Shown: positions 3,330 to 50,397 of the stretch, piece after piece
Layout of the letters: every line of letters starts with the position of its first letter
Numbering within the stretch: position 1 is the stretch's first letter
DNA from: Planomonospora sp. ID82291
GTDB taxonomy: Bacteria > Actinomycetota > Actinomycetes > Streptosporangiales > Streptosporangiaceae
NCBI RefSeq assembly: GCF_015711645.1
Contig: NZ_JABTEX010000001.1
Coordinates: 930,001 to 994,000 of the forward strand
Length of the DNA: 64,000 nucleotides
Reading direction: 5' to 3'
Made by a program: the position numbers and the translations under genes
The notes under the pieces: generated by a model
The model's input: the letters and a program-made list of their open reading frames with translations, nothing else
Databases searched by the model: none
Told to the model about the DNA's origin: nothing

Positions 3330-4097
3330 TCATGACAGCCGCCGGGACGCCAGGATGCTGACCAGGTGCAGGACCATCTGCAGGACGGCGACCGCCACGC
3401 AGGCCACCGCGAGCACCCGCGTCGCGGCCAGGCCGCCGCTCACCAGGTCCCAGACGGCGGCCACCACGACCAGCAGCGAGAGCTCGACCGCCTGGACGAT
3501 GCGGTGGAACCTCAGCGCCGCCGCCGCCCTGCGGGCCAGGCCCAGGCCGCGCGACCGGAACTGCTCGGCCGAGGACTCCGTCGCCGCCACCAGACCCGAG
3601 CGGGCCCGCGCCACGTCGACCAGGTCGGTCTCCGCCTTGATCAGGATCGCGCCGAGCGCCGCGCCGAAGCCCGCCACGGTGTACCAGTCGGGGAGGGTCT
3701 CCGAGGCCCGGAAGCCCAGCCCGATCAGCAGGGCCGCCTCGGCGAAGTAGTGGCCGACCCGGTCGAGGTAGACCCCGGTGATGGAGGTCCGCCGCGTCCA
3801 GCGGGCCAGTTCGCCGTCGGAGCAGTCGAGCAGCAGGTAGACCTGGACCAGCAGGGCCGCGCCCACGGCCGCGCCGAGGCCGGGCAGCGCCAGGACGGCC
3901 CCCGCCGCCAGACCGCACAGGATCATCAGCCAGGTGGTCTGGTTGGGCGTGATCGGCGTCTTGGCCAGCACCCAGGTGACGTAGATCGACAGTTTGCGCA
4001 TGTAGAGCACGCCGGCCCAGTGCTCGCCGCTGTTGCGCTCCATGGTCGAGTGCGGCTGGGCCACCGCGCGGAGCTCAGCGACCGACGGCCCGGACAT
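3330..4097 (-). CDS. CDP-alcohol phosphotransferase, variant active site (Asp to His)
   Basis: 255 residues, integral membrane protein. These enzymes move a phospho-substituent from a CDP-linked donor to an alcohol acceptor, as in phosphatidyl-inositol or -glycerol synthesis. The signature runs D91-x2-D94-G-x2-A-R-x8-G-x3-D112-x3-H116. In the canonical motif the last position is the fourth aspartate, proposed to be the catalytic base; here the codon at 3750-3752 encodes His. Five or six hydrophobic segments follow. GGAGG lies 3 nt before ATG 4097, and the start overlaps the upstream dehydrogenase stop by 23 bp, so the two genes are translationally linked. The acceptor and donor are unknown. 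Confidence 0.8.
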   Translation of the reverse strand: MSGPSVAELRAVAQPHSTMERNSGEHWAGVLYMRKLSIYVTWVLAKTPITPNQTTWLMILCGLAAGAVLALPGLGAAVGAALLVQVYLLLDCSDGELARWTRRTSITGVYLDRVGHYFAEAALLIGLGFRASETLPDWYTVAGFGAALGAILIKAETDLVDVARARSGLVAATESSAEQFRSRGLGLARRAAAALRFHRIVQAVELSLLVVVAAVWDLVSGGLAATRVLAVACVAVAVLQMVLHLVSILASRRLS

Positions 4098-46137: not shown

Positions 46138-46186
46138 CCGGACGCTCCAGATCCGGACGCTCCAGATCCGGACGCTCCAGATCCGG
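46138..46186. repeat. 15-bp tandem repeat, three copies
   Basis: GACGCTCCAGATCCG occurs three times head to tail directly after the NYN gene stop. It runs into the 45-bp repeat array. Confidence 0.75.
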
Positions 46187-46320
46187 GCGGCTCCGGTCCA
46201 GGCCGGCGCGATCCGAGCGGCTCCGGTCCGGGCGGCTCCGGTCCAGGCCGGCGCGATCCGAGCGGCTCCGGTCCGGGCGGCTCCGGTCCGGGTCGGCGCG
46301 ATCCGAGCGGCTCCCTCCGG
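46187..46320. repeat. 45-bp tandem repeat, about three copies
   Basis: A 45-bp unit made of GGCGCGATCCGAGCGGCTCC plus a GGTCCGGGCGGCTCC-type half recurs with GGCGCG at 46205, 46250 and 46295, exactly 45 bp apart. Because 15 and 45 are multiples of three, several frames stay open across the array, but none has a convincing start or ribosome site. The 298-bp gap 46118-46415 contains little else besides the Ada-AlkA promoter. Confidence 0.75.
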
Positions 46321-48625: not shown

Positions 48626-49291
48626 TCACGGTTCGACCAGTCCGGCCCGGATCGCGTACCTGGTCAGTTCCAGCCGGTCGCGCATGCCGAGTTTCTGCAG
48701 GATGTTCGCGCGGTGCCGGTCGACCGTCTTGGCGCTGATGACCAGCGTCTCGGCGATCTCCTTGGAGGAGTTCCCCTCGGCGATCAGCTTGACGATCTCC
48801 TCCTCCCGGGGGGTCAGGATGCTCTCGGGCAGGCGCCCGCCCTGCCGGTCGCGCTGCAGGTACTCGCGGATGAGCGCGGTGACGGCGCCCGGGTAGAGGA
48901 AGGGCTCGCCGCGTACGGCCGCCCGGCAGGCCTCCAGCAGGTCCCGGTCGGCGACCGACTTGAGCACGTAGCCCGAGGCGCCGGCCTTGAGCGACTCGAA
49001 GAAGTACTGCTCGTTGTCGTACATGGACAGCATCAGGATGCGGATGCCCGGAGCCCGCCGGGAGATCTCCCTGGCGGCCTGGATCCCGGTCATCCGGGGC
49101 ATCGCGATGTCCAGGATCGCCAGGTCGACCTCCGCCTCCGAGGCGGCCTCGACCGCCTCGGCGCCGTCCGCGGCCTCCGCGACGACCGTCAGGTCCGGCT
49201 CTGCGTCGAGGATCAGCCGGAGCCCGCGCCGGACCAGGGCATGATCGTCCGCCAGCAGGATCCGCGTCGGGGAAGGGTTCACCGGGTTCAT
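48626..49291 (-). CDS. NarL/FixJ-family response regulator
   Basis: 221 residues. Receiver with LLADDHALVRRGL acidic pocket, phospho-acceptor Asp61 (LAILDIAMPRMTG), LSMYD switch and YVLKSV lysine; then a LuxR-type HTH (LTPREEEIVKLIAEGNSSKEIAETLVISAKTVDRHRANI). It pairs with the kinase gene upstream on the same strand. Its ATG lies inside the first copy of a 44-bp tandem repeat and overlaps by four bases the stop of a 15-residue mini-cistron that is itself part of a coupled chain reaching back to the kinase. Confidence 0.92.
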   Translation of the reverse strand: MNPVNPSPTRILLADDHALVRRGLRLILDAEPDLTVVAEAADGAEAVEAASEAEVDLAILDIAMPRMTGIQAAREISRRAPGIRILMLSMYDNEQYFFESLKAGASGYVLKSVADRDLLEACRAAVRGEPFLYPGAVTALIREYLQRDRQGGRLPESILTPREEEIVKLIAEGNSSKEIAETLVISAKTVDRHRANILQKLGMRDRLELTRYAIRAGLVEP

Positions 49292-49335
49292 CTCCGATCC
49301 GCCGTCGCAGGCACGAAAGGGTTCACCGGCTTCAT
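49288..49335 (-). CDS. Repeat-derived mini-cistron 3 (15 codons)
   Basis: ATG 49335 encodes MKPVNPFVPATADRR and its TGA overlaps the response regulator ATG at 49291 by four bases (ATGA). Peptide function is unlikely; its role would be to hand ribosomes on to the regulator. Confidence 0.5.
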   Translation of the reverse strand: MKPVNPFVPATADRR

Positions 49336-49379
49336 CTCCGATCCGCCGTCGCAGGCACGAAAGGGTTCACCGGGTTCAT
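49332..49379 (-). CDS. Repeat-derived mini-cistron 2 (15 codons)
   Basis: ATG 49379 encodes MNPVNPFVPATADRR; stop and next ATG (49335) overlap as ATGA. One AAC-to-AAG change distinguishes it from mini-cistron 3. Confidence 0.5.
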   Translation of the reverse strand: MNPVNPFVPATADRR

Positions 49380-49423
49380 CCCCGGTCCGCCGTCGCAGGC
49401 ATGAAAGGGTTCACCGGGTTCAT
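49376..49423 (-). CDS. Repeat-derived mini-cistron 1 (15 codons)
   Basis: ATG 49423 overlaps the kinase stop (TGA at 49422-49420) by four bases and encodes MNPVNPFMPATADRG, whose own stop overlaps ATG 49379. It preserves what must have been the original kinase/regulator coupling junction. Confidence 0.5.
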   Translation of the reverse strand: MNPVNPFMPATADRG

Positions 49424-50397
49424 CCCCGGTCCGCCGTCGCAGGCACGACCAGGCGCACCTCGGTGCCGCCGCCGGGGGCGGGGGCGAAGGTCAGGCGGGC
49501 GCCGATGAGGAGCGCGCGCTCCCGCATGCCGCGGATGCCCGCGCCCTCCCTGAGCTCCCCTCCCCGCCCGTCGTCCGTGATGCGCAGGACCACCGCGCCC
49601 TCCTCGGCGGTCAGCGAGAGCTCCGCCCGGGTGGCGCGGGCATGCCTGGCCACGTTCGTCAGACCCTCCTGCGCGATCCGGTAGAGGACGAGCTCCGCCG
49701 CGGGCCCCAGCCCGGGCAGGTCGGCGGCCAGCTTGCGGACCACCCGCACACCGCTGGTCTGGGAGAACTCCGCCGCCAGGCTGTTGAGCGCGCTGAGCAG
49801 CCCCAGGTCCTCCAGGACGCCGGGGCGGAGCCTGCGGGCGACCTGGCGCACCTCGTCCAGGCTGGCGCGGACCGTCTCCTGCACGGCGTGGAGCTCCTCC
49901 CGCAGGTCCTCCGGCGCGCGGTCCACCACCCGCTTCAGGCCGAGCAGCACCACGGTGAGGCTCTGGCCGATCTCGTCGTGCAGCTCCCGGGCGATGCGCT
50001 GCCGCTCGCCCTCCTGCGCGGCCAGCGCGTGCGCGCTGCTCGCGTTGCGCTCCGCCTCCAGCCGGTCGAGCATCGCGTTGAAGGCGTCGATCACGTACGT
50101 GAGGTCGCCGTTGCCGCTGTCGGTGAGCCGGTCGCTCGGCCTCAGCAGGTCCACCCGCTGCATGAGCGCGGTGAGCGCGCCGAGCGGGGCCAGGCTGGTG
50201 CGGAGCAGCAGCGCGTTGGCGGCGAGGATCAGCGCCAGCCCGACCGCCAGGACCGGCACCTCGGTGAGCAGGACCGGCGAGGAGACCGTGGCGGGCGAGA
50301 TCGCCAGGACGAGCGTGCCGACCGTGAAGACCAGGCCGTTGATCGCGAACAGCCTGCGGAACAGCGCCTGCGCCGGTGTCCTCTGGGAATCGCCCAT
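49420..50397 (-). CDS. NarL-system membrane sensor histidine kinase (HisKA_3 type)
   Basis: 325 residues. Two membrane helices (about 18-36 and 42-66) with almost no external loop, then a HAMP-like linker, a HisKA_3 dimerisation helix with His140 (RIARELHDEIGQSL) and an HATPase domain (YRIAQEGLTNVARHARAT, RITDDGRGG, GAGIRGMRERALLIGA). With so little exposed sensor it probably responds to membrane state or to a partner protein, in the manner of LiaS- or DesK-like kinases. The last residues VPATADRG are repeated in the 44-bp array downstream. Confidence 0.88.
   Translation of the reverse strand: MGDSQRTPAQALFRRLFAINGLVFTVGTLVLAISPATVSSPVLLTEVPVLAVGLALILAANALLLRTSLAPLGALTALMQRVDLLRPSDRLTDSGNGDLTYVIDAFNAMLDRLEAERNASSAHALAAQEGERQRIARELHDEIGQSLTVVLLGLKRVVDRAPEDLREELHAVQETVRASLDEVRQVARRLRPGVLEDLGLLSALNSLAAEFSQTSGVRVVRKLAADLPGLGPAAELVLYRIAQEGLTNVARHARATRAELSLTAEEGAVVLRITDDGRGGELREGAGIRGMRERALLIGARLTFAPAPGGGTEVRLVVPATADRG

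Follow-up and report, generated by a model that had tools for sequence, protein, structure and literature searches.

The junction between a sensor histidine kinase gene and a response regulator gene in the soil actinomycete Planomonospora sp. ID82291 is present as four tandem copies of a 44-bp unit. Every unit contains the last codons of the kinase, a TGA stop, an overlapping ATG and the first codons of the regulator, and three mini-ORFs of 15 codons each, joined by ATGA, run from the kinase stop to the regulator, with a TGA/ATG overlap of 4 nt at all four steps. We lean, with modest confidence, towards an explanation in which duplications arising by slippage were tolerated because the chain of overlaps would preserve translational coupling between the two genes, any effect on regulator dosage being secondary.

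Structure of the kinase–regulator junction

The features of the junction are listed in Table 1; the window is the whole 64-kb stretch of DNA that was analysed.

Table 1. Features of the kinase–regulator junction and of two further junction arrays. Positions are those of the window, except where contig C7 of the same genome is named.
Feature	Position	Strand	Remarks
Sensor histidine kinase ORF	49420..50397	minus	Pfam HisKA_3, HATPase_c; HAMP under Pfam cut-off
Response regulator ORF from ATG 49291	48626..49291	minus	Pfam Response_reg (receiver), GerE (LuxR-type HTH)
Tandem array, 44 bp x 4.0, covering kinase stop and regulator start	49273..49448	minus	TRF score 310, 95% match
Mini-ORF 1, MNPVNPFMPATADRG	49376..49423	minus	ATG over kinase TGA; strand read directly
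Mini-ORF 2, MNPVNPFVPATADRR	49332..49379	minus	strand read directly
Mini-ORF 3, MKPVNPFVPATADRR	49288..49335	minus	TGA over regulator ATG; strand read directly
GTG, probable ancestral start of the regulator (MNPSPTRILLADDH...)	49280..49282	minus	GTG in 6/6 same-junction relatives
GGAG, SD-like	49292..49295	minus	9 nt before GTG 49282, abuts ATG 49291
GGAG upstream of ATG 49335 / GTG 49326	49336..49339	minus
GGGG upstream of ATG 49379 / GTG 49370	49380..49383	minus	weaker SD-like
GGGG upstream of ATG 49423 / GTG 49414	49424..49427	minus	weaker SD-like
35-bp x 3.3 array	C7:508242-508355 (L175, 8242-8355)	minus	100% identical; junction of ABC ATPase and probable permease
32-bp x 2.1 array, mini-ORF MTQVTTQTASG	C7:1843966-1844031 (L245, about 3966-4031)	plus	before MauE-family gene

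A sequence-only reading of this DNA had proposed that a 44-bp unit occurs four times at the junction, which is borne out by TRF (4.0 copies, reported as one single array of period 44 at 49273-49448) and by direct reading of the strand. The three ATGA-coupled mini-cistrons that it traced from the kinase stop to ATG 49291 are also present, with the overlaps intact at each step. It had assigned one peptide to all of them; the first mini-ORF does match the quoted sequence, but the other two deviate slightly, leaving small differences among MNPVNPFMPATADRG, MNPVNPFVPATADRR and MKPVNPFVPATADRR. The kinase ends in ...VVPATADRG, and its TGA overlaps the first of four ATG codons, one per unit, at 49423, 49379, 49335 and 49291 on the minus strand. 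A GTG follows in every unit as well, 9 nt past the ATG and in the same frame, at 49414, 49370, 49326 and 49282. A second array is located in the same window about 3 kb away, at 46174-46314 (45 bp x 3.1, 95% match).

The length of the unit accounts for the regularity of the chain. A tandemly copied segment that holds an ATGA regains the overlap, with the following TGA read in frame from the copied ATG, if and only if the segment is 2 mod 3 long and no other stop interrupts the frame; 44 being such a length, a TGA falls over the next ATG in each copy. That the frame shifts at each step yet the overlap is exactly restored had been pointed out before, and restored it is, but automatically, with no second coincidence involved. 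The resulting rule, that a duplicated overlap rebuilds itself only at lengths of 2 mod 3, is predictive and enables a genome-wide test of selection on coupling.

An assembly artefact is unlikely as the source of the array, because the copies can be told apart by substitutions, and P. parontospora, a relative whose genome was assembled separately, has a two-unit form. A 26-base probe from the unit, allowing up to 3 mismatches, gave 3 matches in the 7.58-Mb assembly, all of them inside the array, ruling out a dispersed element. Predicted RNA folding at the array was not above that of shuffled sequences (z 0.52), and a structured RNA element was rejected as a reading. Nor is a chain of short overlapping ORFs a rarity in itself. 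Among frames of at least 100 codons, antisense frames included, NTGA links number 16 within the 64 kb of the window, 168 across 1.2 Mb of its own contig and 121 across 0.63 Mb of the relatives' loci. Since such links are common without repeats in this GC-rich DNA, the signal is the repeat and not the chain.

The junction in related species

The closest named relative among the 80 loci compared is Planomonospora parontospora (L033), with a regulator 98% identical to that of the window; the two differ in 2.15% of bases in the kinase and 2.40% in the regulator. Copy number was compared between the two species: P. parontospora has 2 units and one mini-ORF, MSPVNPFVPVAADRR, against 4 units in Planomonospora sp. 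ID82291, and the overlap chain is open in every copy of both. Six further relatives, chosen by eye from Microtetraspora, Streptosporangium and another member of the family (L034-L038, L126), have the same junction as a single unit, with the kinase ending in ...CGGAG[T/C]TGA. The bases of the repeated unit closely resemble this unrepeated junction, being kinase tail followed by regulator head. From the kinase stop to a conserved Arg codon of the regulator there are 22 nt in two of the six and 23 nt in four, 67 nt in P. parontospora (23+44) and 155 nt in the window (23+3x44). The distances fit 23+44n, and therefore copy number has changed.

The distribution of two variants over units and species suggests that the two-unit state is the older and that expansion came later in the lineage of the window: GATCGGAG ends units 2 and 3 of the window as well as the single mini-ORF of P. 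parontospora, and GACCGGGG is found at the kinase end and in unit 1 of the window. A contraction in the P. parontospora lineage would also be possible. Any two units differ by 0-1 synonymous and 1-5 non-synonymous codon changes; between the two species the ratio of synonymous to non-synonymous changes is 15:5 for the kinase and 10:5 for the regulator. With codon changes that are mainly non-synonymous, a function for the peptides is disfavoured, and the mini-peptides themselves probably serve no purpose.

For a wider survey, 146 loci were scanned, of which 57 gave no kinase-regulator pair by motifs and 15 were duplicate sequences, leaving 74 distinct pairs. One (L074) was removed, its kinase frame extending past the regulator start, so that 73 pairs were usable, those of the window and P. 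parontospora included. In Nonomuraea cavernae (L066), the same gene pair has a 15-bp in-frame repeat (0 mod 3) of ATGAGCGTGGGC right after the kinase stop. Short repeats before the stop were seen at the kinase 3' ends of Microbispora hainanensis (L046, GGTTCA-like) and Streptomyces radiopugnans (L083, GGCGGCACGAACACGACC-like); the end of this kinase gene may be prone to repeats.

Candidate starts of the regulator

The older start of the regulator is probably GTG 49282, because a matching GTG, with GGAG 8-9 nt upstream, is kept in all six same-junction relatives while the codon at the ATG position varies (GTT in two, TTG in two and CTG in two). Two more distant loci (L052, L091) likewise have the GTG, and TTG at the ATG position. 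No single start position holds across the wider group: six codons ahead of the conserved Arg, 22 of the 73 pairs have GTG and 8 have ATG.

The GGAG or GGGG of each unit lies 9 nt from the GTG, yet immediately before the overlapping ATG. Beside ATG 49291, the GGAG is well spaced for GTG 49282 and too close for the ATG itself. Duplex energies computed with an anti-SD tail were -10.6 kcal/mol for the GTG and -7.3 kcal/mol for the ATG at 49326/49335 and 49282/49291, and -8.8 and -5.5 kcal/mol, respectively, at 49414/49423 and 49370/49379. Direct initiation beside the regulator is thus possible, judging by these motifs. The sequence-only reading had ribosomes reach the regulator only through four rounds of termination and re-initiation; every unit having a candidate entry site of its own, an SD-like GGAG or GGGG with a GTG, four obligatory re-initiations do not follow.

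Possible translational coupling across the array

In 42 of the 73 pairs, a candidate NTG start in phase with the regulator shares a 4-nt overlap with the kinase stop (ATGA in 10, GTGA in 28 and TTGA in 4), and the other 31 have no in-phase NTGA there. Among the six same-junction relatives, the start codon over the stop is in phase in two (TTG), out of phase in two, and the remaining two have CTG. Because just two of the six have an in-phase overlapping start, the ATGA overlap seems to be younger than the junction itself. Coupling in these relatives would go from the TGA to the GTG 4-5 nt downstream.

Reporter experiments in E. coli give a yardstick for distance. In three gene pairs with native 1-nt overlaps, a 2-nt gap is reported to lower reinitiation by 5, 20 and 70%, and a 38-nt gap to cut it by 80-90% in two pairs and abolish it in the third; where this was tried, in two pairs, reinitiation needed no more than the final 15 nt of the upstream gene (PMC10666635). 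An earlier study describes strict coupling in 13 of 14 pairs, and a contribution of the SD to coupling in E. coli that ranges from none to essential (PMC6728339). Judged against these figures, coupling would be lost over a 132-nt spacer, and overlapping 15-codon ORFs in a chain would be one way to preserve it.

The consequences of such a chain were explored with a flux model of our own, in which regulator flux equals K p^(n+1) + v(1-p^(n+1))/(1-p), where n is the number of mini-ORFs, p the reinitiation efficiency per step, K the kinase flux and v the direct entry per unit. In the model, extra units lower regulator flux when v/K < 1-p and raise it when v/K > 1-p; either way, they weaken the dependence of the regulator on the kinase. 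The sign being set by the rates p and v/K, the direction of any predicted tuning is not readable from the sequence.

Other junction arrays in the same genome

We scanned 2.4 Mb of the window's own contig C7, about a third of the genome, for clean arrays, defined by a period of 20-120, no fewer than 1.9 copies and a match of 90% or more. There are 231, 74 inside coding-like ORFs and 157 not inside ORFs, and three of the 231 bridge a stop and a start on the same strand: the 44-bp array and those of 35 and 32 bp (Table 1). The genome thus has at least one further clean junction array, the 35-bp one, in the 2.4 Mb scanned. At that locus an ABC ATPase gene (ending ..ELTATTDRSPA; Pfam ABC_tran) is followed by two ATGA-linked mini-ORFs of 12 codons, MTGTATTDRSPA, with GGAG 6 nt before the ATG in each unit. 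The downstream ORF, starting MTGTATPFRRLLAVEARK, probably encodes a permease; it gave no match in Pfam. In the four best orthologues of this junction from 40 genomes searched (L274-L277), all four have a single ATGA, and the repeat is absent from the stretch read. Confidence is lowest for the 32-bp case, in which translation could in truth begin at another ATG, deeper within the final copy.

The periods of all three clean junction arrays are 2 mod 3, as are those of 48 of the 157 arrays not inside ORFs (the three counted in); the chance of three out of three is about 0.03, and the bias, resting on 3 arrays, is suggestive only. A second method, which looked for tandem copies of stop neighbourhoods, found 83 coding-like ORF stops; at four of them, the final copied overlap contains the downstream start. 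The four comprise the three clean arrays and a less regular one with a spacing of 77 (2 mod 3), a GTGA overlap with a 26-codon mini-ORF after a DUF6286 gene (G000:C7:393888; L169, near 13888, minus strand). It was kept out of the count of three, not being among the clean TRF arrays that bridge a junction. Looser filters gave five arrays with a stop and a start, of which two (periods 54 and 48) are 0 mod 3 and do not have the start in the last copied overlap; by that looser definition three of five are 2 mod 3, and the rule is therefore weakened. A perfect intergenic array, 28 bp x 4.9, lies between same-strand genes at L209, 5795-5932, with no copied overlap. Repeat-like matches in L209, L188 and L193 were judged on reading to be intergenic or gene-end repeats.

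Origin and possible role of the array

In the explanation we favour, 44 bp made up of the kinase tail, the stop, the overlapping start and the first codons of the regulator would have been duplicated in tandem through slippage or unequal exchange, to yield the two units of P. parontospora and the four of Planomonospora sp. ID82291. The 132-nt insertion would be bridged by the three mini-ORFs, post-termination ribosomes moving on in 4-nt steps; without that bridge, the gap would be expected to break coupling. Each copy would also have duplicated the SD-like GGAG or GGGG and the GTG, allowing ribosomes to enter at any unit, including the last before the regulator. The duplication may have survived through the coupling it kept, with any change in regulator dosage secondary.

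If ribosomes initiated directly at the last unit, the chain would have no bearing on the regulator, and it is possible, although we consider it doubtful, that the array is a neutral repeat: the regulator would have its own independent start at the last GGAG-GTG, behind upstream copies that form an untranslated or lightly translated spacer. The GGAG 8-9 nt before the GTG is conserved in all six same-junction relatives and the overlapping ATG is not, the mini-peptides are not conserved, and small tandem arrays are frequent, with 231 clean ones in 2.4 Mb and 83 coding-like stops with a tandem copy nearby. It was the finding of an in-phase start over the kinase stop in just two of six relatives that shifted a little of our confidence from the coupling explanation to the neutral one. 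Against neutrality speak the overlap chain, which is open in all copies of both species, and, with little statistical weight, the 2 mod 3 periods of all three clean NTGA junction arrays. The sequence-only reading had suggested that repeat number could tune the kinase:regulator ratio; an attenuator or tuner of this sort, with the repeat number under selection, appears improbable. The difference in copy number between two species so similar in kinase and regulator (2.15% and 2.40% of bases) would suit it, and the flux model has a strong copy-number dependence when direct entry is low; by our own algebra, however, the sign flips once direct entry, taken relative to kinase flux, is greater than 1 minus the efficiency of reinitiation, and the peptide of the unit has no sign of selection. 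Programmed -1 frameshifting along the chain, producing a kinase-regulator fusion, is scarcely credible: each mini-ORF is indeed in the -1 frame relative to its predecessor, but no slippery heptamer was noticed by eye, the folding of the region does not exceed that of shuffles, and every unit closes the unshifted frame with a stop.

Returning to duplication with preserved coupling, a broader version may be put forward as a speculation, and one rather unlikely to hold as a whole. Slippage in GC-rich actinomycetes would amplify stop-start overlaps, with only units of 2 mod 3 surviving, by rebuilding the overlap. The product would be a copy-variable ribosome relay with one entry site per unit, gradually uncoupling the output of the second gene towards a set level; it would be a home-made counterpart of MIRUs (mycobacterial interspersed repetitive units) at partner genes such as kinase and regulator or ABC ATPase and permease.

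Comparison with known systems

In the literature searched, with most subscription journals outside its coverage, chained mini-cistrons derived from duplication of a gene's own junction were not described. The array shares with ATGA termination-reinitiation coupling the 4-nt overlap, the same orientation and the right phase; the usual coupling has one overlap between two genes, whereas here four overlaps are chained through three 15-codon ORFs. With 0, 1 and 3 inserted mini-cistrons at one junction type, the relatives, P. parontospora and the window form a natural dilution series for termination-reinitiation. Engineered bicistronic designs use one leader, whereas the 44-bp chain is natural, iterated and inside an operon; the likeness is that a short translated ORF would hand ribosomes to the next start. 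This short-leader-ORF principle has been described (PMC12548453), and a bicistronic design is reported for Corynebacterium (PMC10367133).

The closest known kind, likened by description, is the mycobacterial MIRU, in particular the senX3-regX3 case. MIRUs are described as cassettes that bear a short ORF and are coupled to a gene at -4 nt; they are apparently mobile, insert at start codons and are found in many mycobacteria (PMC12548453). Several are reported between the kinase gene senX3 and the regulator gene regX3 (PMC7884335), as 77-bp repeats numbering two or three depending on the BCG strain (PMC9392950). Like a MIRU, the 44-bp unit provides short ORFs that overlap their neighbours stop to start at -4 nt, ATGA at four steps; like those of senX3-regX3, it lies between kinase and regulator genes and varies in repeat number. 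Unlike MIRUs, it is not interspersed (3/3 probe matches inside its own array), and in place of an inserted cassette it is not foreign, having been copied from the local kinase tail and regulator head. The 44-bp unit may work like a MIRU, but is not a member, because it duplicates the local junction and its probe matches are found only in its own array; such local copying suggests how MIRU-like cassettes could arise in place.
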